Shown here: positions 2,807-59,100 of the stretch, one piece after another
Layout: each line of letters opens with the position of its first letter
How positions within the stretch are numbered: the first letter of the stretch is position 1
NCBI GenBank assembly: GCA_037951105.1
Contig: JBAMJV010005558.1
Coordinates: forward strand, 35,702-99,701
Length of the DNA stretch: 64,000 nucleotides
Direction: 5' to 3'
Origin: Echinarachnius parma
Taxonomy: Eukaryota; Echinodermata; Echinoidea; Clypeasteroida; Echinarachniidae
Position numbers and translations under genes: made by a program
The notes under the pieces: model-generated
The model's input: the letters and a program-made list of their open reading frames with translations, nothing else
Databases searched by the model: none
Told to the model about the DNA's origin: nothing

Positions 2807-4146
2807 CCGTAAACCGGGGTGACTTTTGCCACTTTTTGAATATTTTCTTGAATAATTTTTTCATAATTATTTTTTTTCACAAATTTCTTCCATAATAAGG
2901 GTGTACAAGTAAAGGTCTATCCACTGCATATATATTCTTCCCTTCTTGATTTTTATTTGTATTTATTTTGTTGGTCGAAGACTGGCAAAAGTCACCCCGG
3001 GTGTCGGGGAGACTTTTGCCGGCACACATTTTGTTGTTTTTAATACAACACTTTCAATATTTGTCTTAACTAATGTGCTTTGAAAATACACTGAACCTCT
3101 TTCTCCTATTGTTTTACTTATAAATACTTTTAAAAATACATGATTTTAGTAAAAAAATGATATTACAATAGGACGCACAATTTTCAAAATCTTCAAAATG
3201 TACATTGCAGCTTCCCCTATCTCAAGTCTGATAACAGTTCAAATAACTTCTTCTTATGTCGCTAGCTCTATCAGTGAACATTACTGCAATTTTCATGGAG
3301 ATTTAGTTCTAAGAATGCCAGATCATCACATCTTAGCAGTTTGTCTCAACAAAAAAATTCGCCACAAGATGACTAAGTCTACACTCCTGTATTTTGGTTC
3401 AATGTACACTATTATTCCTTTATTAATTATAAATAAAAATAAAACTGAAAATTTTTCTTGAAACATACATGTAATCTAATTTATCATAAGGCCAAAGTAA
3501 ATGATATTTCTGATCACACTGCATTCATAATGCACAATTTATACAAATCTGAAATATGAGACTTAACCACATTATTGCCTTTTCATTTTTTTTGTGACAT
3601 TTGAAGGCGCAATAGCCTAGACGCGATTTTTAGAGCTTGCTTGATATGCACTGAATATAAACTAATTTTACATTTTGTCTCCTATTTACAACTCTGTAAC
3701 CAAAAACCTAAAAATTCTATTCTGGCCAAAGTCACCCCGAGCTTGCAGCAAATAGCCCAGGGTGACTTTTGCCACGGCCATTTTGAAAAAATCAGAGGGA
3801 GGGTCGATGAAGTTGGTGCAAATTGGCAGTTTGGTACACCCTTAGTGTACGTTATCTGACATATTTGCTTGATTCTCCATTTTCCATTTTCTGTAGAGAC
3901 TCAAAAGTTTGACCACCATATCAATCATGCCCTTTATTTTTCATACAAAAAAAAAAAAAAAAAGCACAGAGGGTAAGCCGTTATAAAAGAACGTTATGAA
4001 TTTGTATAATGTTCATACATTAGCCTATAAGAATATGTCAAAATATTTCCAGAAATTTGTTCAAGTAAGAGAGCCTCAATGAAAATACATTTTTCTCACA
4101 GGGTGGCAAAAGTCACCCCGGCGGACAAAGTCACCCCGGTTTACGG
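2807..4146. mobile_element. Transposon with seven copies of a 15-bp motif (element i)
   Basis: Inverted ends start CCGTAAACCGGGGTGAC and end GTCACCCCGGTTTACGG, each flanked by TA (2,805-2,806 and 4,147-4,148). The 15-mer GGCAAAAGTCACCCC, or its reverse complement, recurs at 2,816, 2,984, 3,006, 3,724, 3,759, 4,105 and 4,123, with at most a few mismatches. The termini themselves include the motif. No convincing transposase frame. The TA duplication fits Tc1/mariner or a similar group, but the family is not recognised. Confidence 0.75.
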
Positions 4147-5208: not shown

Positions 5209-5364
5209 CTTCCTTCTGTAATGATGTCATTTGGCCAAGCCCCTGCAATCATGAATATGGATATTTGAATCAATGATAATGTATTTGCTATGCAGGGCCA
5301 ATTAATTATATTTTCATTATATCTATCAAGTACTGATACTCACGACCACTTCCTACACTCTTTA

Positions 5365-5390
5365 TATTATTTCATATTACAGAGCCATGG
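5365..5390 (+). other. Splice acceptor just upstream of the TRIM start codon
   Basis: Reads 'tttcatattacag' then AGCC and ATGG. A pyrimidine-rich stretch ending in CAG three to four bases before a Kozak-like ATG suggests that the 5' UTR is spliced even though the coding part is one exon. The upstream exon was not found. Confidence 0.5.
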
Positions 5391-7210
5391 CGAGTGCGGA
5401 TGCTGTAGTTACTCAAAGTTTGGAATGCTGTCTGTGCTTCGACTATTTCAGTGAACCTAAATTCCTTAGTTGTGGGCACACTTTTTGTAAGGTATGTTTG
5501 GACCATCTCTACGAATGTCATCCCCAACAGAAGAAGATTTCTTGTCCGATTTGTCGTCAGATTACCAAAATCAACAATGGAGACACCTCTAAACTGAAAA
5601 CTAACATTTTGATTAAGTCTATGGTTGAGGACGTGAAATCCGCCAAAAGAAGCTGCACGCTCTGTGACCCTGACGATAAATCTGCTGCGATACAATACTG
5701 CGCTCAGTGTGACGAGTATATGTGTGACCCCTGCACAGTGGCTCATGGGAAGTTTAAGAAGACCACTAAACATGAAGTGGTCAGCATGGATGACGTCAAA
5801 AGGGGAAAGGTCAAAGTGAAGCGTTTCTGTACCAAGCATCCAGAGGAAGAGAAGCTGTATGTCTGCACATCATGTAGGGTGTCCATCTGCTTCAGATGTC
5901 GCGTGATCGACCACAGCAAACCAAAGCACAAGATCAAAGAGGTGTCTGACTACAAGAAGACAATCCAGAAACAAATCAAATCCCTTCAGACAAAAGCTAC
6001 AACTAAAATTGCGACGATCAAGGCACATGCAGATCTAGTAAGGGAACAGGAAGCAGTTGTTGAGGTGGAACTTGATCAGAAGATAGCTGAGATCAACCAA
6101 TCATATGAGGAAGCAGTGAAGCATCTCACAAGGCAACGCAATGATCTCATCGACCGTTGCAAACAAGAAAAGGCTTCTCACATCGCACAACTTGAGAAGA
6201 TCAAGGAATCCGATGACAAAGAGATGCGTTGCATTCGAAGTGCATCTGAGCTAGTTGGCAATGGTATCAAGGCACTGCTAGAGGGGCAGACACTGGCTGT
6301 GCACAACACGATTTGTTGCGATTTGGAGAAAATGTTGGATGAAAATCATCCTGATGCCAAGCAGCCCAAATCCATAGCTGATCGTGCAAAGCGGGTGAAA
6401 TTCATCAAAAGCGGTACTCCCAACGGTCTGGGTGATTTGCAACTACCTGACTGGCAGCTTGAGGAGGTGAACACATTTCCACTCTCACATGACGACCCAA
6501 GTGATGTACTGCCTTTGCCTGATGGACGGGTGGCTGTTGGTTATGATGGTGGGCAGGCTATTGAGATGCTCACTGTTGATGGGCCGCAGGAGACAGTGCT
6601 GAGGGGTGTGGAGGTACGATGTGTATCTGTCTTGTCTGACAGTCGCTACATTGTAGTAGAGAGTAATACAAAAATCACACTGTACACACAAGCATGGGAG
6701 AAGCTCAATGTTCAGTTCAATCATAATGGACATTCGGGCAGCATGTGTGTAGACAGAGATGACAACATCTATGTCGGTTATGAAATTAATGATGAGATTC
6801 TTGTATTCCGACCAGAAGGTGGTGCACCAATTAAGGTTATTCCGTGCCGTGGCTCTATGTCAGTGGAAATCTGTCACATGAATCACATCAGAAGGCTGGT
6901 AGTGCGTGCCGGGTCAAAGTCAGTCAGGGTCATTGATGACATGGATGAGAAAGGCACCATCCTTCATCACATCCAGATGGATGGTCAGTTTAATACATGC
7001 ATTGCTGTCCTGGAGGATGATAGCATACTAATTGCATGCAGGAAGGATGATCTCCTGAACATTGTGCTCTACACAAAGGATCTGAAGAGAATCAGAGCGA
7101 TCCTCAAGGACTTTCCAATGGCAAAGTACTTAAAGAAATTGGTTGAGTTGCCCACTGGAGAGATTGCTGTAGTATCAGCAGACCAATTCATGGTCTTCCA
7201 CAAAATCTAA
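5387..7210 (+). CDS. TRIM-family RING-B-box-coiled-coil E3 ubiquitin ligase, single coding exon
   Basis: A complete 607-residue protein. Residues 14-56 form a C3HC4 RING: C14-x2-C17, the CGHTFC cluster at 29-34, C37, then CPIC at 53-56. Two B-boxes follow: about 89-130, with Cys pairs CTLC, CAQC and CDPC, and about 145-190, containing FCTKHPEEEKLYVC and CFRC. A Lys/Glu/Gln-rich coiled coil spans about 195-290. The C-terminal 250 residues hold repeated hydrophobic beta-blade-like segments such as DRDDNIYVGY, resembling the propeller of TRIM56/TRIM2-type proteins. Such proteins ubiquitinate substrates through the RING, and many act in innate immunity or RNA control; the target here is unknown. 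Invertebrate deuterostomes often have expanded, single-exon TRIM families. The start ATG sits in GCCATGG directly after a splice acceptor. The gene lies antisense to MAN2C1 and would be nested in its intron 12 if that gene continues left of the window. Confidence 0.9.
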   Translation: MASADAVVTQSLECCLCFDYFSEPKFLSCGHTFCKVCLDHLYECHPQQKKISCPICRQITKINNGDTSKLKTNILIKSMVEDVKSAKRSCTLCDPDDKSAAIQYCAQCDEYMCDPCTVAHGKFKKTTKHEVVSMDDVKRGKVKVKRFCTKHPEEEKLYVCTSCRVSICFRCRVIDHSKPKHKIKEVSDYKKTIQKQIKSLQTKATTKIATIKAHADLVREQEAVVEVELDQKIAEINQSYEEAVKHLTRQRNDLIDRCKQEKASHIAQLEKIKESDDKEMRCIRSASELVGNGIKALLEGQTLAVHNTICCDLEKMLDENHPDAKQPKSIADRAKRVKFIKSGTPNGLGDLQLPDWQLEEVNTFPLSHDDPSDVLPLPDGRVAVGYDGGQAIEMLTVDGPQETVLRGVEVRCVSVLSDSRYIVVESNTKITLYTQAWEKLNVQFNHNGHSGSMCVDRDDNIYVGYEINDEILVFRPEGGAPIKVIPCRGSMSVEICHMNHIRRLVVRAGSKSVRVIDDMDEKGTILHHIQMDGQFNTCIAVLEDDSILIACRKDDLLNIVLYTKDLKRIRAILKDFPMAKYLKKLVELPTGEIAVVSADQFMVFHKI

Positions 7211-16275: not shown

Positions 16276-19200
16276 GTTTTCTCACCTCTTCCACTGTGAC
16301 CTTGGAGTTGTAGTCGTCGTTGGGAGGAAAGTGAGCAAGACACTTTGTCCCGTCTATTCCCTGCCACCAAAACGTGTTGTGCTGAGAATAACAAACATTG
16401 AAATGATGGTATTTTACACAATGATTATAAATGTTGCTTGTAAGTATCAGTTTCCATGGTGGTGTATATAATACGTGTGGTTTGCGGATGCACCATGTGA
16501 GTGTGGTGGATTGGTGATTCCTGAAAAGGACTATGGTAGTCCTAGAAAGGACTGTTGGTAGTCCTTGAAAGGACTGCTGGTGTAGTCCTAAAAAGGACTG
16601 TTGGTGTAGTCCTGAAAAAAGGACTCTTTCTAGGAGAGTCCTAAAAGGAACTGTTGGTAGTCCTAGAAAGGACTGTTGGGATAGTCCTGAAAAGGACTGT
16701 TGGTATTCTGTTGATTATATTTTTATACATTTTATCATGATGCGAGCGTGGAAATTAACTAGACAAGTCTATGCCCTGCAAATAGAGCCTATTGTGCGGA
16801 AGAGATTTGTTTTTATGAAACCATGAAAGTATTCAAAATATATCTAGCATAATTAATTCACACTGGTTATATTTGATACAATCAAAATTTATGATAAGCC
16901 AACTTAACACAATAAACAGAAACTAAAAGAACCCTGAAGGCTGTAGATGACAACCAAAAAATTTAGGAGGTAAATATTTGTATTGTGATCAAAAGATTAA
17001 AATGTTGCTTTAACCCTAACCAGGCCGGGGGGGGGGGGTGGAATCCACCCCCCCCCTCGACTTTTCGCGCGATAATTCTGCAACGCCCGCAGGTATTGCC
17101 GCGCAACTTCATGAGTTTTTTCATTGAAGTCTTGCGCAACTTTTGAGACCAAATTTGCGACGACCGGGTATACCGTTCCAAAGTCGCATGACCTTTTGTA
17201 AGTGAGCGTCGGCATGAAAAGCGCTAAATTTTGTGATTTGTGTACAAATCCTATGGAAATTGAGTTTTTCCTAGAATAGACAAAACCTTCTTTATTTTTC
17301 ATTCTAATCACTGCAATCATTTAATTTTGGGCTAAAAATAGTTGAATAATGGTTAATAATTCATTCCATCGAAAAAAACAATAAAAAACAAAAGTAAAAA
17401 AACAAAGAAATACATAAGAAATTCCAAAAACAAAGAAATACATAAGGAATTTTTTTGCTGTTGCAATTTTTAATGTTGAAAACCTTTTAATTAGGTCATT
17501 AAAAATATTCATGCACAAAATTGGCATATTCTGAGCCATATTTAGTGATTTATAGACAAAAAGAGGATTTTTGCATAAATTTGCATAATTAAGTAGAAAT
17601 TTATTTTTTTCAAAAAAATAACAATGCAATCTTGTAGATTATGTCGCAAACTATCTGTGTGCCAAATTTCGTGGCGGCCGCGCGTTCGGCGGCCGAGATC
17701 TCAGGGGGGGGTGGAATCCACCCCCCCCCCCCGGCTATAGCATAGCCAAAATAACCCGGCCTGGTTAGGGTTAAAATTAAATACCAATACAGATGAGCTT
17801 TCATACTAAAAGGAAATTAAAAACCTGTGTTTAACCCAAAACGTGCCAGTGGAGCCCTTTCCCAGTCCCACATTTATTGGAATGCCACTGCCTCATTGCT
17901 TTTTGGGGATTTGAAAGAAATCTATTGAAAAGAGAATGCCCGACACCTGACGATTACGGTGTGCACCGAACAATAGAGCCACTTACGTATACAATGGCAC
18001 CGCACATTACAATGGGCATGATCAAGTACTCTTACCATTGCGTGCAATTATGCCGCAACTTTCCTCTTTTTTTTGTCTTACCTCACTCACATGCCTGTTT
18101 ACCATTAAAGGGTACCACCACCCAAAAATAATATTCTTATTAAAGAAAGGTAACATCCTTAGTATTCCATTCCATCAACAAGTTCACAAAAATATGTTTC
18201 CAGAAAGAAAACAAATAATTGGAAACGCATCACCATTCTAAAGCATGCGTTCATGCGGTCTGAATTACGCAGACTGCTATGTGTGTGGTGAATTGCAATG
18301 TATGCAGAGCGAACGAATCGCCCGGGAATCTATTGTTTACAAACCTGCGAGTGAATAGCATTGGCGCACTCGCAAATGGTTGGCCCGTATGGAACCAGGA
18401 AATAGCAGTGGTTCTGTAAGTGGTGGAAATTAATTGCTTTGTTTATGAATTACAGAACCCTTTGCAAAATGTTGGGTATCTATTTGATATCACAAAACGG
18501 TACCAAAACATATAATAATGTGTTGTCCTTTGCCCGGTGGTCCCCTTTAAGTACTCTATTACCATTGCGTGCAATCAAGTACTCTATTACCATTGCGTGC
18601 AATCAAGTACTCTATTACCATTGCGTGCAATCAAGTGCTCTTCTATTACCATTGCGTGCAATCAAGTACTCTATTACCATTGCATGCAATCAAGTACTCT
18701 ATTACCATTGCGTGCAATCAAGTACTCTATTACCATTGCGTGCAATCAAGTACTCTATTACCATTGCGTGCAATCAAGCATGTGGCATCCAAGCAGTAGC
18801 TGTAATGCAAGCACTTGGCACGTTAGATGATAAAATACTCACTGGAAACTTGTTGACGAGAGACCAGCTGAGTTTCTGAGACACAAAGCGTTTGATTCCT
18901 GCCCCGGCCAGGATCTGAGGCAGCTGGGCTGAATAGCCAAAGGTATCTGGTAGCCAGAACTAAGGGGGAGGGGGGGGGGGGAAGATATAATAATGATGAG
19001 TTATTTTAAAAATCAAACCTTAAAAAAACACAGAGGAAGTTGGATAAAATGGTCACTACTAGTAATACTTAGTAACTATATTGTATTGTCTTACTTTCTA
19101 AACCATTTGCTTATAAATTCTGATTGCTCCTATTTATTTAGTTGAGCACTTTAACCATGGTGATTTGCACTATTTATACTATTATTAATGTTCATATCTC

Positions 19201-29154: not shown

Positions 29155-32000
29155 CCATCATCATCACCATCATCACCATCACCACTGCCACCATCATCAT
29201 TTATGCCTCCACAAGCACAACCACCACCATCACCACATAGCATTTCCGCTACCATCATCATTTGAAGCTCACCATGGCTTCCGATCCCGAGTTCCAGAGA
29301 AGATGGACCTCCTTACCCTGCCAGTCATCAGGGATGTTGATGACCAGTAGGAACCAGTGGGTCGCCCATCTGAGCAGGGATGCAAACATATCTGACCTAT
29401 CACCACAAAAACTTTGAAATCACAAACAAATGTATTTCAAATCCTACAGTAGGTACAAAATAACAAAAGTCGCAATAGAGTAGTCTCCGCTTAATTATGT
29501 AGGCTGCTGCATTTAACGCCTTTTAAAAGACCTGTATACTTGATTAGGTAGTAAACATTTCTATAAGAAACATACAAAATGTTTGGTCGAATCCTACTCA
29601 CAGAGGTACCCCTTTGAATGCTACCTCATTAACAGAAGACTATTGTATTTCAATTTTGTGATTTGGGTAATTCTGAATTCTCCTGAAACTTGGCTTTCTG
29701 TATGTCTGTATGCCAATCAGCGGTATAGTGTTCAAATGGACTGAATTGGGGGCTCTATGCCTTTGTCAATTACTGGATTTCAGACCCTGCTTGTAAGATT
29801 GTATTACCATTAGTATAACATAGGTCCATAGGATGACCCAGTCCTAGAAGTCTCCTCAGCCGGGGGGTAGCCTACTTAGAACCATTGATCCCTGAAACCC
29901 AGCCTTCTGTAGCCTCCGATTGGGGAGGTGGTCTGGCCTGTGCCCTCTCCCCGAATTAATTGACAAAAAAAAACATTTAAAAACATAAAGAGAGACCTGT
30001 ATATTATGACTTTACAAAAAAACATTGTCTGGAAGCCTGTTATACACTACATACGTACGTTGGTCCGTAAGATGTCCCAGTTCGTGTTTCCTCAGCCGGA
30101 GGATACTTAGAACCATTGATCCCTGTAACCCAGCCATCTGTAGCCTCTGCAAACTTGACACGTCCATTCACCTTTCTGTGAGTGAGCGACACTGGCCGTT
30201 TGTCAGGGTACAATCTGAAGAAAATAAATAATGATAACTTTATGAACCAGAGCACTATAACACAGAGTGCCTATTGCCAAACAAAGTCATTTGGATGGGC
30301 ATATCTCAGCCAATACTTAACATATTCAATTGATTTTCGGCATTTGGACATTATTTTTGACGCTCTTTCGGAAAATTAATTTCAAATTTGAAAATTCTCA
30401 AAAAAGATGCTTTAATGATGTCATGGCTTCTGTACTTTATTATCTATAGCCGGTCACATTAATGGATCACCCAATTCATTCTCATTGCTTAAACTCTCTG
30501 TTACCTGCCACATAGGTTCGCATAGGTGTGTACCATTATGCATCTGAGATGAATTTCTCCTATATGTAACTATTTCACATGTATCTTGTAATAATATTGG
30601 GGTTTATGTCAGGTTTATAAAGCTTCTGACTACTTGAGCAAAGTTGAATTAAGGGGTTTCTGGGAAGAACGCCGTCGTAGGGTTTTTTTATAGCTCAGTC
30701 GGTAGAGCACCGGTCTGGCAATCCGGAGATCTTGGGTTCGAATCCCGTTGGAATCCCATTTTTCTTTGCTCACTTTTAATCACAATATATTCTTGGTCAG
30801 TTTCTCTATATGTCTGAATTAATTTGTAATAATATTGGTATATGAGTGAAGACCCAAATATCACTGTTGGACAAATCTTATGAAGTTAAAGGATGACTTT
30901 AATGTTTCCTTCTACTCGAACCTTTCATGCATGTCATAAAGATACACACATATTGCGAAGTACGCATCTGAGATAGATTTCTCTGATCTTCATTGAAGCT
31001 ATATCCACAAATCATTCAGAAGAATCTTATAAATAATATTATAATTTGGAAAAATCTGATGTTAGTTAAATACTGAATCACGTTAATGTGTTCTCTACTC
31101 TTTGCTTGAACCCATTTTTACCTGCCATAAAGGTTGACATCTGTGAAGTAAGCATCAGAGATGAATTTCTCTGCTCTTTCCAAGGTGGTCCGTTTATGCT
31201 TGAAGACAACGGGTGGTGCAGAGACGGCCATGTTTAGCTGTTGTGGGGGAAAAGTTGTGGGTGTACAAAAATTATTCATATTTTTTTCTTAAAATAACAC
31301 TACATCGGTGACTCGTGACTACATCCCTCGTAATACTAATACTATAGGAAAAAGTTATGTTGAGAAAATTATAGCCAATCAAGGCTCTTTAAAAACAAAT
31401 AATAAAACATTACATTTTACATGTTATTGATGACTTATTGCCCTGTCGCAACTCGCAAGAAGTTGACCATGTAAAATTTTGTGTAGATTAATTCTAAATT
31501 AAAAATGTGATATTATTAGTAATAATAATAATAATATATTTGATTTATATAGCGCTTAATATAAAATTATCTCTAGGCGCTTTACAAAATTGTACAGAAC
31601 TTAAATGCGTCTTGAATTGTTTATAATTATAGTTACACTTTGCAATGATAATCTTATTCTAAAGTTAAATTAGCAATTTACAAAAAGCGAAGAAATATTT
31701 CTCAACATTCATTCATTAATATTTACTTCTTCTTCTACTTCAGTAGAAGACATGGATACATATTTCAATCTCTGTATTTATTAATTCTCAATCACACTCA
31801 TCATTATCGTTTCACTTTCACAATAACAATATAACAATGACACAATTTCAAAACGTATGTTGCAGACGATCATGCACACAACGCCGATTGCAATACGTGG
31901 GTCACAGTAAATCGGGACCTAATTATACAAGTGGAGGCAAAAACTAAAATAGACCATAAATATTATCATAATTACCGCCTCCAGATCCAGTTTACTTACC
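12867..32000 (-). CDS. MAN2C1: MAN2C1, cytosolic alpha-mannosidase (GH38), N-terminal 540 residues in 12 coding exons
   Basis: Twelve exons (listed separately) join without a phase conflict into 1,620 nt. The product follows vertebrate MAN2C1 closely. It has [20 protein letters not shown] near the N-terminus, the zinc-ligand motif HIDSAWLWP (about residues 272-280), [14 protein letters not shown] (about 343-356), and [15 protein letters not shown] (380-394) with the GH38 nucleophile Asp. No signal peptide is present, as expected for the cytosolic enzyme, which degrades free oligosaccharides released from glycoproteins in a zinc- or cobalt-dependent hydrolysis. The vertebrate enzyme is about 1,040 residues, so roughly the second half, including the NQFHD zinc ligand region, lies outside the window to the left. 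I searched 1-12,866 by eye for those exons and found none. Introns contain many decayed copies of exon ends. Confidence 0.93.
13098..13250. mobile_element. Possible small MITE with ends CAGGGATACCAGC / GGCATCCCTG
   Basis: 'cagggataccagc' is roughly inverted at 'actggcatccctg'. Short and without a clear target duplication. Confidence 0.35.
13260..14490. other. MAN2C1 intron 11, no gene seen
   Basis: Contains 13,780-13,925, a repeat with 'agggggctac' and 'gggggcgaaatcgccctcag' that recurs at 40,430-40,590 and 59,225-59,370. Otherwise AT-rich. Confidence 0.5.
14493..15044. mobile_element. hAT-like MITE with internal poly(A)/poly(T)
   Basis: Ends AGAGGCACGGATTTTCCG and 'cggaaaatcagtgcccct' are inverted. 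Flanks 'tgtactgt' and 'agtactgt' agree in 7 of 8 bases, suggesting an 8-bp duplication. About 40 A then about 35 T sit in the left half. Repeated 'aacggaatt' words fill the rest. Confidence 0.55.
15234..15325 (-). CDS. MAN2C1: MAN2C1 coding exon 11
   Basis: Residues 451-481. Product [19 protein letters not shown] then [10 protein letters not shown], matching the vertebrate NNRDKGRANH and GFGDGGGGP. Donor GTAAGT, acceptor CAG at 15,326. Phase 0 in, phase 2 out. Confidence 0.92.
15440..15498 (-). pseudogene. Copy of the 5' end of MAN2C1 exon 11 with its acceptor
   Basis: 'cactctgcccttgtctcagc' and 'gactttaagatctggcaac' repeat exon 11 at 15,276-15,330 with several changes. It stops inside the exon and has no donor. 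Confidence 0.75.
15590..15895. repeat. CAT/ATC trinucleotide microsatellite, degenerate
   Basis: 'atcatc' runs with CAC and TTC interruptions. The His- and Ile-rich open frames on both strands are products of the repeat. Confidence 0.95.
16133..16195 (-). pseudogene. Copy of the 3' end of MAN2C1 exon 10 with its donor
   Basis: 'tgttttctcacctcttccac' through 'gtcgttgggaggaaa' is nearly identical to 16,276-16,330. The two are separated by an ATC microsatellite (16,215-16,275), so the duplication is recent. Confidence 0.85.
16286..16381 (-). CDS. MAN2C1: MAN2C1 coding exon 10
   Basis: Residues 419-450, product [20 protein letters not shown], then [12 protein letters not shown]. It corresponds to vertebrate [20 protein letters not shown]. 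Donor GTGAGA, acceptor CAG. Phase 0 at both ends. Confidence 0.93.
16515..16706. repeat. Array of small palindromes AGTCCT...AGGACT
   Basis: About eight units of 25-30 bp. Each contains 'agtcct' followed after 3-6 bases by 'aggact', so each can fold into a 6-bp hairpin. Spacers read 'gttggtgt' or 'gttggt'. Confidence 0.85.
17010..17774. mobile_element. piggyBac-like MITE, TTAACCC family (P2)
   Basis: TTAA-flanked. Ends TTAACCCTAACCAGGCCGG and its complement, with the subterminal word TGGAATCCA between G and C runs at both ends. Flanks ('ggtaaatatttgtattgtg' and 'taccaatacagatga') match 33,060-33,140, where no element is present. Confidence 0.8.
18105..18550. mobile_element. T2/Kolobok-type MITE (F)
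   Basis: TTAAAGGGTACCACCACC at the left and GGTGGTCCCCTTTAA at the right. A reverse-oriented copy lies at 27,335-27,772 and a truncated one at 38,892. The flank 'cctcactcacatgcctgttt' is shared with the 27.8 kb copy, so the MITE sits in a larger repeat. Confidence 0.8.
18546..18777. repeat. Minisatellite, about 8 units of 28-31 bp
   Basis: Unit 'gtactctattaccattgc' plus 'gtgcaatcaa', almost identical between copies; one unit has a 3-bp insertion. A lone related unit lies at 18,025-18,048, on the other side of MITE F. Confidence 0.95.
18843..18959 (-). CDS. MAN2C1: MAN2C1 coding exon 9 (nucleophile exon)
   Basis: Residues 380-418. [20 protein letters not shown], then [19 protein letters not shown]. 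The Asp in LPDTFGY is the GH38 catalytic nucleophile by family homology. Donor GTGAGT, acceptor TTAG. Phase 0 both ends. Confidence 0.95.
19391..19465 (-). pseudogene. Copy of the 5' end of MAN2C1 exon 9 and its acceptor
   Basis: 'gctgaatggccaaaggtaca' and 'ggcagccagaactaaggggg' repeat 18,928-18,970 with small indels. Not a complete exon. Confidence 0.8.
19660..19845. repeat. ATC/GTC trinucleotide microsatellite
   Basis: CATCAC, CGTC and CATC runs ending only a few bases from the exon 8 donor at 19,852. Confidence 0.9.
19853..20056 (-). CDS. MAN2C1: MAN2C1 coding exon 8
   Basis: Residues 312-379. [58 protein letters not shown]. This is the most conserved stretch against vertebrate MAN2C1 ([21 protein letters not shown]). 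Acceptor 'gtctaatcag', donor GTTAGT. Phase 0 both ends. Confidence 0.96.
20170..21720. other. MAN2C1 intron 7, left part
   Basis: AT-rich with repeat-like phrases 'ggcccggggccagtaaaaat' (20,350), related to 22,500-22,570. A stretch beginning with TTTG repeats at 20,815 could be a minus-strand LINE 3' tail, but no protein motif was seen. Confidence 0.4.
21726..22239. mobile_element. mariner-like MITE
   Basis: Long inverted ends beginning CAGGGTGGCCCAAAAAA and ending GGGGCCACCCTG, flanked by TA. The inverted arms extend about 200 bp, for example 'acgataccaagaacagt' against 'actgttcttggtatcgt'. TA duplication and the CAGGGTG terminus are typical of mariner relatives. Confidence 0.8.
22783..23026. 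mobile_element. Second copy of the TGTGACCGGCTA MITE
   Basis: Left end TGTGACCGGCTATAGCAAAA; right end 'ggttttgctatagctca' is decayed. TA on both sides. Related to 11,155-11,414. Confidence 0.7.
23054..23160 (-). CDS. MAN2C1: MAN2C1 coding exon 7
   Basis: Residues 276-311: (A)[18 protein letters not shown] then [17 protein letters not shown], completing HIDSAWLWP. Acceptor CCCCAG, donor GTAATC. Phase 1 in, phase 0 out. Confidence 0.95.
23262..23320 (-). pseudogene. Copy of the 5' end of MAN2C1 exon 7
   Basis: 'cctcttggtctctgcatagg' and 'gccacagccatgctgagg' repeat 23,130-23,165 with few changes. The exon part is truncated. Confidence 0.85.
23506..23650 (-). pseudogene. Second copy of the 5' end of MAN2C1 exon 7 with intron
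   Basis: Repeats exon sequence ('ctcttggtctctgcatat') and about 90 bp of adjacent intron ('gggatttaattgttgtttca') found also at 23,180-23,250. Confidence 0.85.
23672..24439. mobile_element. Iteron-bearing transposon, GGGC family (element ii)
   Basis: Inverted ends GGGCCATTCTT and AAGAATGGCCC. A 4-bp duplication ATGA lies at 23,668-23,671 and 24,440-24,443. GTCACACACGTGACC occurs exactly at 24,013, 24,038, 24,235 and 24,414. The left half has none. No coding frame. Same terminal style and target size as the elements at 52,521 and 55,892. Confidence 0.8.
24440..24530 (-). pseudogene. Decayed copy of the 3' part of MAN2C1 exon 6
   Basis: 'gcgttgtcacatgcatggat' and 'aggaattgtctacagatctc' match exon 6 at 25,178-25,250 with many changes. 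Element ii inserted at its edge. Confidence 0.75.
24585..25160. repeat. CATCAC hexanucleotide microsatellite in two blocks
   Basis: 24,587-24,805 and 24,915-25,160, split by an exon 6 copy. Long Met/Val-, Asp/Gly- and His-rich frames on both strands are repeat products, not genes. Confidence 0.97.
24818..24912 (-). pseudogene. Copy of the 3' part of MAN2C1 exon 6 with its donor
   Basis: 'agaatcgatgtgagcgttgc' to 'gatctctctcgctgcctggt' is about 85-90% like 25,168-25,263. Flanked on both sides by CATCAC repeat, as the true exon is on its left. Confidence 0.85.
25165..25354 (-). CDS. MAN2C1: MAN2C1 coding exon 6
   Basis: Residues 213-276: [36 protein letters not shown], and [13 protein letters not shown]. 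Its end carries two of the GH38 zinc ligands (His and Asp of HID). Acceptor 'gtacatag', donor GTAAAG. Phase 0 in, phase 1 out. Confidence 0.94.
25455..25578 (-). pseudogene. Copy of the 5' part of MAN2C1 exon 6
   Basis: 'gtctctggtttatctgcctc' and 'ggttgactgtgtacagg'-like sequence repeat 25,265-25,358, including the acceptor region 'tgtgctatac'. Decayed. Confidence 0.85.
25947..26050 (-). pseudogene. Near-identical copy of the 3' half of MAN2C1 exon 5
   Basis: About 95 bases from 'accttgaccatgtcgacaag' to 'actgcgatctcagc' equal 26,338-26,413 and continue with small changes to 'gcgtgaacatt'. The donor is intact but the 5' half and acceptor are missing. Confidence 0.92.
26340..26517 (-). CDS. 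MAN2C1: MAN2C1 coding exon 5
   Basis: Residues 153-212: [57 protein letters not shown]. It aligns with vertebrate LYVEVACNGLLGAGKGS. Donor GTATGA, acceptor CAG. Phase 2 in, phase 0 out. Confidence 0.94.
26685..27170 (-). pseudogene. Four decayed tandem copies of the 5' boundary of MAN2C1 exon 5
   Basis: Copies near 26,690-26,730, 26,842-26,888, 26,988-27,030 and 27,138-27,165. All carry variants of 'atggagttgcatgcc' and 'cttcatgtgactg', spaced about 150 bp with intron sequence between. Confidence 0.8.
27240..27300 (-). pseudogene. Copy of part of MAN2C1 exon 4
   Basis: 'gccgatgttgtctggtcagc' and 'ctgaagcttgtccgat' repeat 28,122-28,160. Confidence 0.85.
27335..27772. mobile_element. T2/Kolobok-type MITE (G), inverted copy of F
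   Basis: TTAAAGGGGACCACCAGGC at the left, GGTGGTACCCTTTAA at the right. The interior matches 18,105-18,550 in reverse, with mirrored phrases such as 'accaggaaatagcagtgg' and 'ccactgctatttcctggt'. The right flank also matches the left flank of F. Confidence 0.85.
28110..28204 (-). CDS. MAN2C1: MAN2C1 coding exon 4
   Basis: Residues 122-153: [20 protein letters not shown] then [11 protein letters not shown]. It corresponds to vertebrate [20 protein letters not shown]. A G run of the acceptor tract lies directly upstream. Donor GTGAAT. Phase 0 in, phase 2 out. Confidence 0.9.
28575..28935 (+). mobile_element. 3' end of a non-LTR retrotransposon
   Basis: The frame reads [17 protein letters not shown] in the listed phase. 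With one frameshift it gives [19 protein letters not shown] then [10 protein letters not shown] and a stop, the classic reverse-transcriptase C-terminus of CR1/L2-like LINEs. Ends in 'gtgccttaaaaagggaatta' and ATT repeats. Confidence 0.75.
28998..29200. repeat. ATC microsatellite
   Basis: Mostly ATC/CATCAC/CGTC units, ending about 70 bp from the exon 3 donor. Confidence 0.95.
29273..29369 (-). CDS. MAN2C1: MAN2C1 coding exon 3
   Basis: Residues 89-121: (T)[19 protein letters not shown] then [13 protein letters not shown]. It aligns with [22 protein letters not shown]. Acceptor 'gctcag', donor GTGAGC. Phase 2 in, phase 0 out. Confidence 0.94.
29825..29935 (-). pseudogene. Partial copy of MAN2C1 exon 2
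   Basis: 'agtctcctcagccggggggt' and 'agaaccattgatccctgaaa' plus 'cccagccttctgtagcctcc' repeat 30,085-30,150. The rest of the exon is missing. Confidence 0.8.
30059..30214 (-). CDS. MAN2C1: MAN2C1 coding exon 2
   Basis: Residues 37-89: [40 protein letters not shown], ending TSYGP and a split Thr. The conserved GPT-W junction joins to exon 3. Acceptor 'cttcag', donor GTACGT. A 5'-half-like sequence at 29,830-29,950 ('gaaccattgatccctgaaac') is a partial duplicate. Confidence 0.9.
30684..30763 (+). tRNA. tRNA-like sequence (pseudo-tRNA or SINE head)
   Basis: A perfect A box TAGCTCAGTCGG at 30,691 and B box GGTTCGAATCC at 30,735, with a plausible D arm, an anticodon arm (loop CTGGCAA, anticodon GGC) and a TTTTT run at 30,759. 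The acceptor stem does not pair (TTTTTTA against TGGAATC). Eukaryotic Ala-GGC tRNAs are not expected either. Probably a pol III-derived repeat, not a working tRNA. Confidence 0.55.
31122..31231 (-). CDS. MAN2C1: MAN2C1 coding exon 1 (start codon)
   Basis: Residues 1-37: [20 protein letters not shown] then [16 protein letters not shown]. The ATG sits six bases after an acceptor with tract 'cttttcccccacaacag', so the 5' UTR is split. The N-terminal position agrees with vertebrate MAN2C1. Donor GTAAAA. Phase 2 out. Confidence 0.95.
31510..31600 (-). mobile_element. Tail of a LINE or SINE, minus strand
   Basis: An ATT/AAT repeat followed by 'tatatagcgcttaatataaa' and 'taggcgctttacaaaatt' is the reversed 3' tail seen in many marine LINEs. 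No coding part. Confidence 0.45.
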
Positions 32001-53135: not shown

Positions 53136-56100
53136 CCGATCATCCGATCCCGATCATCGATCCGATTTCGAAGATCGATAAAATTTTGCCGATCCGATCA
53201 AACGATCCGATCATCAAGGTCAGTTACAGCACTAGGCAAGTCCAAGGTATTTGTTCCCAAGGGGGTAAATTTTCATATTCACCCAATTGAGTGAAACTTG
53301 ATGTCATTTTAAAGCTAAGATATTGAATTTTAATAATTTGAAAACAAAAATTAAAAACTTGTCTCCAATAAGTAGTAATAATCAAATATATTTGCATAAT
53401 ATGTAAATAGTCGTAACACGCGGGACATCTGAATTAAAGACAAATTAAATCATATTTAAAATGCTTTTAATGATTCTCTACTTATTATTGGCTTGACCTG
53501 ATGTCATTACCAGAAGGAAGTTGGATTATAATTTTCAGCTTGTTATCTCATTCAATATGCATATTAGATGCGTTCCAAAATTAGCATGTCCCACGTGTAA
53601 CATTTTTACATCTTATTGTTTCGATTACTCGTTAATCAAAAGGTTTATTTTTCTGACACTCTACAAAGTTCTAATTTACCTTGGGGGACATCCATAACAT
53701 AGCAACAAAAAGTTATCACATTTACCTAATTAGCATAAATCAATAATTAGATTTTGTAACGTGCGGGACATTTTGTAACGCGCGGGACAATCTATACAGT
53801 AAAGCAATGGGTTTTTGAAAATCTTGTTTTGGCCTATTGGCTTATTTACGATCATTCCGTAACATGCAAGGAAATTTGCCTGCCACTTTTCTATGAAGTC
53901 TTGCGCAACTTTTGAGACCAGATTTGTGACAAACATTTGTACCCTTACAAAGGCACATGACTTTTTCGAAGTGGAAGTCAATCTGGAAATTGCATAATTT
54001 TGTGATTTATGTACAATTCCTATGGAAAAAGTGTTTTTTCATAGGATTAATAAAAACTCAATAATTTCTCATTTTAATCACTGCAAATAATTAATTTTAG
54101 GATAAAAATTGTTTGACAGTGGTAAATAATTGATTTCTTTTTTAAAAAGATGTAAAAATGGAAGTTGAAAAACAAAGAAATACATAAGAATTTTCCAAAA
54201 CAAAGAAATACACAAAGAAAATATTTGCTTTTGCAACTTTGGTTTTTAAATGTTGTTAGGAAATGTCATAAAGAACATTTATGCATAAGATGAGCATTTT
54301 CCAAGCACAAATTCTTGATATATCTATAATAAGGGCAAATTGGGGGGTGGGCCTATGTAAAACGCATGGTAGAAAAATGTCCTGCGTGTTACATGTCCCG
54401 CGTGTTACAATACAATCTTTTTTCAAATTGATCCTGTGTGAAACTCTAAAGTTTTGAGATGATGAAATTTCATATTCTGGTAGAGCACAAGATGCACATT
54501 AAGACCATACCAAGCATGTTTTGATATATATATAAATTCAGAGGAATTCACATTCAAAGTCAAAGTTTAAAAATACCAACTTTCTCTGGTCCCGCGCGTT
54601 ACGCTAGCAAAAAGTCATTAATTATTAATCAATTAATGCATGGGGAATTTCATTTTTTTTTTTTGCCGTTTGATAGAATTTGCTCTAAAGCATCTAAAAT
54701 GTAAAACAAATTGGTGTTTCAATATTTCTTATAAGAGTAAGCTCTCTTTATCGCTCTGATGTCCCGCGCGTTACAGTTACAAAATAGCTTGGACTTGCCC
54801 CCAATGAATCGTCAGAACTGTGTACAAAGTGAGTGCAATGAGTTAGTGAATGAATGTCACTTTGCATTTTTGCTCTTTACGCCATACAAAGTCCATTTAA
54901 CTTGAAATGTTCACACAACACCCTGTGGATATCAGATAACAGCAATATACATTGTATCAACCACTCATCACTTTTTGCACATGTCAACAAAGTTACTAGA
55001 TCCCTTTAACAATTTCCTTTTTTTATACAAAATTAAATAACATTAGTGTTCTATTTTGATGTTAAATTTACTGATCTCCTGTTTAAGTATTTTCCCACAG
55101 CAATTACCTCTCAATTGGCATTACTTAACCCTATATAGCCCGGGGGGGGGCTAAAATGGCCCCCCCCTCGACATTTTTCGCGATAATTTGTTAACGCGAA
55201 AAAAACTTGCGCTGAAATTTCATGACTTTTTTCTATTGGGTCTTGCGCATCTTTTGAAATAAAATTTTTGAAAATCGGACCTACCGTTATGAAGTCACAT
55301 GACCTTTTGTCTATGCATGTCAGCCCGAAAATTGCTAAATTTTGTGATTTGTGTACAAAACATATGGAAATATCAGTTTTCATAAAAAGGGATATATCAT
55401 TGGTTATTTGGTCTTGTTTACATTTTAGGTGTTTGTTTTGGGGTTCATAGTAGTTGATTTATTGTTAGAAATAAAATAAACAACAAAAACAATAAAATAC
55501 ATAAGCTAAAAAAACAAAGAAATACATAAGAAATTATAAAAACAATAGAAAACATAAGGAAGAACCTGGCTCTTCCAAATGTTTTGGTTGTATTATTATT
55601 CCAAATGGTCTAAAGAACATATGTAGTGAAAACCAATGTTCAATTATGAAGAATATAATGATTTATGGGTAAAAATATGAATTTCTGACCTTATTTGCAT
55701 AAATTACCATAATTATGCAAAAATAATGCATTTTTCAAAAAATTTTAAATTACCAAAGTATTCTATACACTTCACTAAATATGCGTGCAAGTTTTCGCGG
55801 CGAACGGCCGATTCGCGGCCGAGATCTTAGGGGGGGGCCAAATTAGCCCCCCCCCGGGCTATGCATTTTCAAAATAGCCCGGGCTATATAGGGGCAATTC
55901 CACGGTTAGTAACGTTACATTTAGAGCATATTTTCATAACATATTCTACTATAACACCACCATCTATTAATTTCAAGTCACAATCATGTTACAACATGTT
56001 CACCCACCCTAGGTCTATAATACAAAAAAAATGAACACAATTGAACTAATATTCGCGTCGCCATGGCAACTTTTATTGTCGGTTAGTAACGTTACAAAAA

Positions 56101-59100
56101 AAGGACATGGGAAAAAATCAATGTTTTCAAATAAGAAGTCTTCTAAAACCTTAGATAATTCCAACAAAGTGCCATATTCATTTTACTTCTAGTTAGTTGG
56201 CACATGTTTCAGCCAATAATTAAAGCATCTTGACTCGTATTTTTTTCATTAGGCTCCAAAATCATGGTTAGTAACGTTACGGTTAGTAACGTTACACTTT
56301 GTCCGTGCAAAGGTAAAAGTTACCAAACATCATTTTTTACCCTCCCTTCGCCTCAAAATCACAAGTAATACTTAGGAATTACAAGTAAATCAACATAACT
56401 ATCCATATTACTCTTAACTTTTAAATTCTTTAACTAGAAACTCTTAACTCACAACTTGAAACATGAAAACTGTTTGAAAACATATATCTTATCCGATACA
56501 TTCCATAGTTCACCAAAGTTCATCAAGTGGTAGGTTAATAATGCATACTTTGTAATACCAGTTAACTGTTTATTTGCAAGCATTTAGATTCAATATTTGT
56601 AGTATTTTAGCAGGCAAATATTGAGTAGAGATCCATCAATCCAAATGTTCATTTGTTGACTTGTTCAATAATCCAATTAATGTTACATTTGGATTCTTAC
56701 AAAAACTTTAAATAGTACTTTGTTCATAGTATCAAATTCAAATACATGTAGCTTTGTGTAAATAAAATAATTATGTGTTTTAATACAAAACATGATCATT
56801 GGAGAGATAGAATTATAAAAAAGAGATGTTTGTTTGTAGCTAGTTTCTTCTTAATTTGGAGCTGTTTTTGCACACATTTTGGTAGGGAATGTTCTTGCAT
56901 CTTTTTCTTCTCCCAGCTCCTCTTCATGGTAACTGCTTTCTTATCTTTGTACTCCTCATACTTGCCAGTCCTCTTCAAGTTCACTATTGAATTTGCTTCA
57001 TGACCTACATATAGAAAAATAAATAAAAACAAAATATAATTTATTCATGAACTAAAAGATAGGCAAGTAGTAATTAATTAAGATGAACATTTTCTGCATC
57101 ATATTGCAGAGTAGAATACTTATTTGTGAGTGTTGGAAAGTTCCCATATGACACAAACAAATGAGATAAAACAATTGTTACAAATATACAGTAGTATACC
57201 TGTACAAATATTTCAGTCACAAAATTGGTTTTAAGATTCTTGTTGTATCCCTTAGAAGTTTTCACTAAATTAAAATACTACTTTTTGCAAGTGCTTCATC
57301 ACTAAAGATGTTTTTTTTTACATACAAGTTTCCATGGCAACCGACATGGCTAATCATAATGTACCCCTAAAAACACACAAACATAAACATCTCTGGACAG
57401 TGTAATTACATTAAATATACACTTGTAAGTTTATGTAATCCATTACAATATATTTGTTTTATATCAATATATTAGTTTTCACTGTAAATACAATGTATAT
57501 CATTATCATTAATCAGTGTAAACTGTACACAGTGTATTCAGTACAACAAAATACCTTGATATATATAAGGGTATAAATGATAATTAAGATTATAATTACT
57601 ACAATAATTCAACTTACCAAAGACAGGTCGCTGCTCGTCAAAGTAGAGTCAACAATATTTTCCAATGACTACTTTCCAGGAGAAAGATTTATGAGGAGTT
57701 TACACTAAAATACTGCTCACGCTGAACATCAGATACTGCACATGTTCTTGCATAGACCATAGATATGAGATGCTGCACACATGGGATGCTGCACATGGTT
57801 GAATAACTCACATTACTTTTAAAAAATTGGTCATCCATTGTTCTAAAGTGGCCTCTTTTGTCTTACTTTACATATCCTTTCACTCACTTTTGATTAGGGC
57901 CAGCTTATAAGTGTCTCTTTCACTGTGGTTATGGTTAGTAACGTTACACTCTGTATCATAGACTGGTTAGTAACGTTACATGGTTAGTAACGTTACAGAT
58001 TTTGACTGCTTATAATTAATACATCATATAATATTTGTAAAATTTGTTCCTTAAATTTGATAGAGCATTGCTTGGAAGAGAAACATTTGAAGTAGGAATA
58101 TTATAAGGCATTGCATTCTCTCTATAGAAAAATAAATCCATGTTTTGGTTAGTAACGTTACATGGCATACCAATGGTTTTTAATTTCACTCACTGTTGGC
58201 ATAAGCAACTCAGATTCTTAATTTTGCATGATAAATCTATTAGAGCATTGTACTCACTAAATAAATATGATAAGTTTGTAAGGTCTTGTGTATTTTCATG
58301 CTCATAATGGCTTAATCAACTTTTTCTTAACTTACTTTAGAAATAACACAGGAAAATATCACCAATGTAAATTCGCTATTTTAACCCACTTTTACCACAG
58401 TCAAAGCAAAATAAATAACCTTTCCAGTAATTTTGATGTGTCTTTAATCATATACAACCAAAAAATTTAAGAAAAAGACACTTTGAAATTTTGGGGTCAT
58501 GTCCACCTAATCATGGAATTGCCCATAGGGTTAAGTTAGCTTGGTTAAAACTATCTGTAAAGCAGGGTTGGTTCGGAAATACAGAAGGTGGGAAATACTT
58601 TCTGGGAATTAAGATGCCCATGTCAAGTATGGGTGAGGTGGTTAATATGATCATTTTTACTCTGTCTTTATTATCCTTCATGTCTCATAGGAAGGTCTCA
58701 CAAAAAAGGTAAGTGTGGAGCCCTGTATAACACTATACCTCTTAGCTGGTATCTCCTCGGCAGCCGTGGTGGGAGACACAGAGCTGCTCCGTGTTGCTTT
58801 GCGAGCCCTCCGCTTGGCTCTGCTCTTCACGCCAGGTGTCTTGGGCAGAAGCTTTGATTCCTCCCTGTATAAATAGTATATCATGAATATATATTAGATT
58901 AACATTCCAATACTCACTAGCACTTGCCCTGTTGCCCAGGCCGAGTACAAATTGATGTTGGGCAAGTAAAATTTCATGAATGGCCCAGTTTGGTTGCCCA
59001 ATTTTCAACCCATTTACATAATTATTATGGCAAATTCCAGAGAATCATTATTCCAGACTTGTTGTGGGTTTGGGGCTGGGCAGTCACAAATAATAAATCA

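Follow-up and report, generated by a model that had tools for sequence, protein, structure and literature searches.

The window analysed here, 64,000 nucleotides of the Echinarachnius parma contig JBAMJV010005558.1, contains a 2.6-kb DNA transposon at 55892-58524 that carries eight exact copies of a 15-bp motif, GGTTAGTAACGTTAC, all on the same strand. An initial annotation, made from the letters alone, had reported these copies, four within 410 bp of the left end and four within 600 bp of the right, and had fixed the ends of the element to the base. Our measurements agree: the left-hand sites reach to 404 bp from the left end, the right-hand sites begin 592 bp before the right end, and the element of 2,633 bp terminates in GGGCAATTCCA and TGGAATTGCCC and is flanked by ATAG on both sides. 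The features are given below, together with their counterparts in a related family of miniature inverted-repeat transposable elements (MITEs), of which 21 copies were aligned.

55892-58524, plus strand: non-autonomous DNA transposon, 2,633 bp; a DNA search with 55893-58522 returned 34 other near-full-length copies
55888-55891, no strand: left target-site duplication ATAG, read at the borders
58525-58528, no strand: right target-site duplication ATAG, read at the borders
55892-55902, plus strand: left terminal inverted repeat GGGCAATTCCA, 11 bp, with imperfect pairing extending to ~18 bp
58514-58524, minus strand: right terminal inverted repeat TGGAATTGCCC, 11 bp
55904-55918, plus strand: site 1, exact GGTTAGTAACGTTAC, one base inward of the inverted repeat
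56081-56095, plus strand: site 2, exact
56266-56280, plus strand: site 3, exact, in tandem with site 4
56281-56295, plus strand: site 4, exact, in tandem with site 3
57933-57947, plus strand: site 5, exact; counterpart in 0/21 MITE copies
57965-57979, plus strand: site 6, exact; counterpart in 0/21 MITE copies
57982-57996, plus strand: site 7, exact; counterpart in 0/21 MITE copies
58147-58161, plus strand: site 8, exact; counterpart in 0/21 MITE copies
56096-56110, plus strand: AAAAAAAGGACATGG after site 2, common to families whose remaining spacer does not align
56296-56311, plus strand: ACTTTGTCCGTGCAAA after site 4, partly common to the MITEs, read by eye
58499-58504, minus strand: ATGTCC, the reverse complement of GGACAT, near the right end and present in the MITE right end too, read by eye

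Each 15-mer combines a palindrome (GTAAC/GTTAC) with a third half-site (GGTTA); its last ten bases, GTAACGTTAC, are perfectly palindromic, as first described. With up to three mismatches allowed there were 11 matches, a number reached by none of 100 shuffles (mean 0.91). GGACA/TGTCC motifs, seen by eye, are also repeated, after sites 2 and 4 and close to the right end. A genome search with the 15-mer, suggested in the initial annotation, covered 1.2 Gb in 14,790 contigs and found copies genome-wide, 1,678 exact occurrences (828 + 850) against two (1 + 1) for the reversed control. A literature search with parts of the 15-mer yielded titles on unrelated subjects.

The 2.6-kb family has at least 35 near-full-length copies including that of the window, to which the others are 96-99% identical by DNA search; the count is a lower bound taken from the best 40 of 432 candidates scored, and several of the copy alignments stop at 58523, one base before the right end. 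The 33-bp pattern of right-hand sites occurs 139 times in the genome, and a piece of the interior reading frame gives 148 match rows, some places giving two, from which we estimate a family of ~140 copies. Two closely related forms were distinguished among 15 copies, the window's form (n = 7) and another (n = 8). In one 2.6-kb copy (L017), the distance between sites 2 and 3 has grown to ~1.5 kb and includes repeats with a period of ~158 bp; these repeats also occur in L013 and L023. Another copy, L048 (606-3250), bears many scattered small indels and is probably an unpolished stretch of long-read assembly. A reading of L048 as a divergent copy in which each site is intact or missing was dropped, the scattered indels resembling raw-read errors in our judgement; the conservation counts exclude this copy, and the duplication survey includes its duplication.

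The second, older family shares the ends of the 2.6-kb element and measures 735-803 bp in copies with perfect duplications. These MITEs carry up to four left-hand sites, and no site lay to the right of position 450 in any of the 21 aligned copies; the 4+4 layout is thus not general. The 21 copies, selected for overall similarity irrespective of the site, comprise 20 of 55 match rows (from the best 40 of 620 candidates scored) and L011, and a set of 17 omits four near-identical ones (L011, L054, L061 and L066). Twenty further loci picked by the 15-mer are biased for conservation; L012 and L014 from among them, which are also two of the 35 near-full-length copies, enter the 2.6-kb counts, as L011 enters the 21-copy MITE count.

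The comparison between the two families gave the clearest signal. Over the first 225 bp of the consensus sequences, 57 of 58 left-site letters were identical, compared with 98 of 194 other aligned bases, the MITE consensus being drawn from the copy set not picked by the 15-mer. Single divergent MITE copies set against the 2.6-kb element gave 46/48 in the sites and 81/189 elsewhere for L022, 57/60 and 86/188 for L010, and 45/45 and 69/146 for L013; the ten single copies compared in this way come from the biased, 15-mer-picked loci. The consensus sites start at positions 13, 192, 378 and 393 in the 2.6-kb family and at 13, 192, 379 and 394 in the MITEs. Spacer 1 is 164 bp long in both, and its alignment was no better than that of shuffles (696/1000 in local and 115/1000 in global alignment reached the score). 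Spacer 2 measures 171 bp in the 2.6-kb family versus 172 bp in the MITEs; its first 25 bp align between the families (0/1000 shuffles reached the score) and the part beyond does not (880/1000), in tests that used 170 bp of the 172-bp MITE spacer. The letters of the sites and the distances between them have outlasted the DNA in between, whether or not the spacers share an old descent, and this conservation between families is a stronger signal than the invariance within one copy.

The element is a young, non-autonomous cut-and-paste transposon, and its 15-mers are probably repeated subterminal sites at which a transposase supplied in trans docks and which are kept in source copies. A transposase encoded elsewhere would bind the repeated sites by the ends, as the Herves transposase does with its own motif, with site 1 abutting the end of the element, and would move the element by 4-bp staggered cuts. 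Selection would act on the choice of mobilised copies, so that source copies would keep the sites and a rough spacing, with the DNA between them drifting freely, and single insertions would decay nearly neutrally, sites included. We infer both the binding to the 15-mers and the identity of the binder.

The binder might instead come from the host, a Myb/SANT-type or telomere-repeat-binding factor for instance, and act in expression or silencing. A palindromic core with a half-site would suit a sequence-specific dimer, and GGTTAG resembles a telomere unit, TAAC the core of a Myb site. Nevertheless, the position beside the transposon end and the reuse in non-coding MITEs suit mobility better, and a host factor seems to us quite improbable.

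Within the 2.6-kb family, we examined 15 of the 35 copies (that of the window, the next 11 ranked, C932, C106 and C115), a set that leans to similar copies. Minority bases made up 1/1,800 in the sites versus 314/37,422 elsewhere, and singleton changes 1/1,800 versus 128/37,422 (p = 0.015). The flanks of the sites (±15 bp) were low too, with 11/2,490 minority bases, and one 125-bp stretch had a single varied column. This small signal, in a neighbourhood that is also quiet, is suggestive. Youth alone might account for it, if the eight sites were already identical in the founder and have not been maintained since; the 96-99% identity of the copies, the nearly unvaried flanks and the private mutations that MITE sites take at the normal overall rate are all compatible with this. 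Youth explains only the invariance within copies, however, and leaves unexplained why another family, with spacers that cannot be aligned, has the same 15-mer in the same places; as the whole explanation we consider it unlikely. The invariance of the sites inside one copy nevertheless mostly reflects the youth of the family.

Several observations weigh against maintained docking sites. In the 17 MITE copies, private changes were about as frequent in the sites (20/892, 2.24%) as elsewhere (284/12,067, 2.35%; p = 0.47), and in sites 3-4 (14/384) they were above the level elsewhere. Shared-variant columns numbered 4/60 in the MITE sites versus 94/718 (p = 0.10), and 0/120 versus 34/2,512 in the 2.6-kb family, which is not significant (p = 0.20). 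When all changes were counted, the sites had 34/1,092 versus 762/14,917 in 21 rows, a level that 42 of 777 circular shifts matched or undercut, and 28/892 versus 603/12,067 in 17 rows, where 48 of 777 did so. Of the tandem sites 3-4, at least one had been lost in 11 of the 21 MITE copies, and the start-to-start distance of sites 1-2 varied between 155 and 191 bp in single copies, which does not show a strict ruler. Moreover, ungapped identity of the spacers exceeded chance (reached by 32/1000 shuffles for spacer 1 and 2/1000 for spacer 2 beyond 25 bp), and the spacers may be very old homologues with few length changes rather than unrelated sequences. Finally, no transposase gene and no autonomous relative with the same ends, for which the initial annotation had proposed to look, was found among the copies examined, no search with a protein or model of Sola2 (a superfamily discussed below) having been made.

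In the MITE copies, the sites as a set are not shielded from mutation after insertion. Sites 1-2 may be slightly shielded, with 6/508 private changes, fewer than elsewhere (p = 0.045, 17 copies). The MITE inverted ends vary like the remainder (26/462 in the 21 rows), and CpG letters vary at 10/194 in the MITE sites versus 26/230 elsewhere. The view that invariance points to a binding requirement is therefore borne out between the families and not within the MITE copies; equally, a motif no better conserved than its flanks, which was to speak against that view, is found in the older MITE family as a whole and not between families.

Recent homogenisation, by which gene conversion or unequal exchange would have spread one 15-mer within the element and between families, had also been suggested. 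The sites do recombine: tandem sites 3-4 are prone to loss, sites 5-7 have a few flanking bases in common with sites 3-4, and seven mosaic MITEs (L009, L015, L019, L020, L025, L026 and L028) join the first spacer of the 2.6-kb family to the remainder of the other MITE type. Outside the sites, the first 225 letters of the mosaics are 88-94% identical to those of the 2.6-kb family, and the switch lies inside site 2 or in the ~20 bp that follow it. Conversion tracts should, however, bring neighbouring bases along, and the spacers before site 2 differ between the families up to its very edge; positions are preserved as well as letters. Homogenisation is not needed to account for the identical sites, and we regard it as an improbable cause. 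In terms of docking sites, site 2 and the short stretch behind it would serve as an exchange point, giving rise to MITE subfamilies that mix the first spacer of one family with the remainder of the other.

The right-hand four sites are specific to the 2.6-kb family and dispensable for movement, since MITEs without them carry duplications of their own. It is also conceivable, and we offer this tentatively, that the sites and their distances form a sequence-free ruler, in which a multi-subunit transposase complex reads four sites at ~179, 186 and 15 bp. The spacers would then be free to drift to saturation or to be replaced, if the source copy's length were kept within a base or so, and the sites would double as joints for swaps of spacer modules.

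The coding capacity of the element had been described as decayed, which is incomplete: a frame on the minus strand, at 56808-57005, has stayed open in nearly all of the related places listed, with an internal stop in 12 of the 148 match rows. This frame is rich in Lys and Glu and has splice-like edges. A match to TruD, the best in Pfam (E = 0.011), fell below the cut-off, was probably due to chance and was rejected; the best PDB match was weak (E = 1.3). The longest stop-to-stop frame reaching into the window copy has 91 aa and runs out of the element. Of the 139 places with the right-hand pattern, 100 were listed, apparently in order of mismatch and all with 0 mismatches; 99 of them paired with a frame match, and in 14 of these the gap between the two was more than 150 bp wider than usual. 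We inspected four of the 14 widened places. The three widest, fetched almost whole, contained other repeats, one of them tandem, with longest frames of 84, 147 and 80 aa and no autonomous element; in the fourth (C260, the same as L024) the widening was a local duplication. Widened 2.6-kb copies also carry another repeat, which occurs twice in L069, in inverted orientation (1279-2057 and 2854-3645, reversed locus), and once in L071 (1771-2547). Exact left ends with C or T as the fifth base after site 1 occurred five times in the genome, all MITE-like by BLAST. Two of them, L074 and L075, had no recognised right end within the 951 bp fetched; they share one divergent MITE variant, have similar flanks and lie on two contigs, which indicates that a segment was duplicated or that two haplotypes are present. 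In L013, a 9.1-kb pair of ends with matching flanks was considered as a long element and rejected, its right end being judged a chance match.

The reading frame and the other features of the window are as follows.

56808-57005, minus strand: 66-codon reading frame with an AG acceptor-like site on one side, possibly an exon remnant of a lost gene
55125-55891, plus strand: left part of a TTAACCC MITE interrupted by the element; its right end resumes at 58525-58534
17010-17762: diverged relative (68%) of the TTAACCC MITE, free of the transposon
30686-30753, plus strand: tRNA match
5306-7210: RING/B-box protein, consistent with an animal genome

The insertion into the right end of the TTAACCC MITE was confirmed: with the element and one ATAG omitted, that end is the exact reverse complement of TTAACCCTATATAGCCC at 55125. 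In some copies elsewhere the borders of the element are altered (e.g. L010, L015, L031, L047 and L068); the initial annotation had taken differing borders as an argument against its proposal, and they are as expected from decay.

The element is of a known kind; what remains of interest is that sites and spacing are conserved from one family to the other. Two families with common sites and spacing and little common spacer sequence provide a natural case that separates probable docking sites from the rest of a transposon. They also correct a tempting inference, as identical sites in one young copy do not show selection and the comparison between families does. If the reading of the spacing is true, the geometry of a multi-site transposase complex becomes testable.

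In terms of classification, inverted ends and target-site duplications in many copies, with no transposase found, are those of a non-autonomous DNA transposon or MITE. Ordinary MITE families are non-autonomous, with short inverted ends, duplications and many copies; the present element and its relatives are alike in all of these, whereas the window copy differs in its 2.6 kb and eight sites from its MITE relatives with at most four. Perfect 4-bp duplications were found in 37 copies of both families, equal flanks being merged. They are AT-rich and near-palindromic, with ATAT in 11/37, a middle TA in 24/37 and TTAA in 1/37. The survey covers ends that are still model-like; a further 17 left ends lacked either a perfect duplication or a right end that was matched or fetched. 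With TTAA in just one copy, membership of piggyBac was rejected. The duplications of hAT elements, to which Herves belongs, are 8 bp and those of PIF-Harbinger 3 bp, and both memberships were rejected on the 4 bp seen here. For Academ, one source gives a 3-bp duplication (PMC5199201), which our 4 bp exceed. A range of 3-4 bp for Academ would allow them.

Repbase sorts non-autonomous elements according to the length of their duplications and their first 11 bp (PMC4455052). For Sola2 elements, another report gives AT-rich 4-bp duplications (ATAT, ATTT, AAAT, AWWT) and short inverted ends, as in the present element (PMC3627910). Our 37 duplications, 24 with a middle TA, agree with this, and a Sola2 assignment is compatible on the duplication alone, which does not fix the superfamily; the comparison extends to the duplication and short ends, no transposase having been found among the copies examined. 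The transposase of Herves, a hAT element of Anopheles gambiae with 11-bp imperfect ends, binds a short motif that recurs in each of the two subterminal regions, and Ac, Tol2 and Tag1 are named there as parallels (PMC3143072). The present element resembles Herves in having a short motif repeated in both subterminal regions and 11-bp inverted ends, binding being shown for Herves only, and differs from it in the motif itself, CG/AATTCAT in that source and unrelated to GGTTAGTAACGTTAC.

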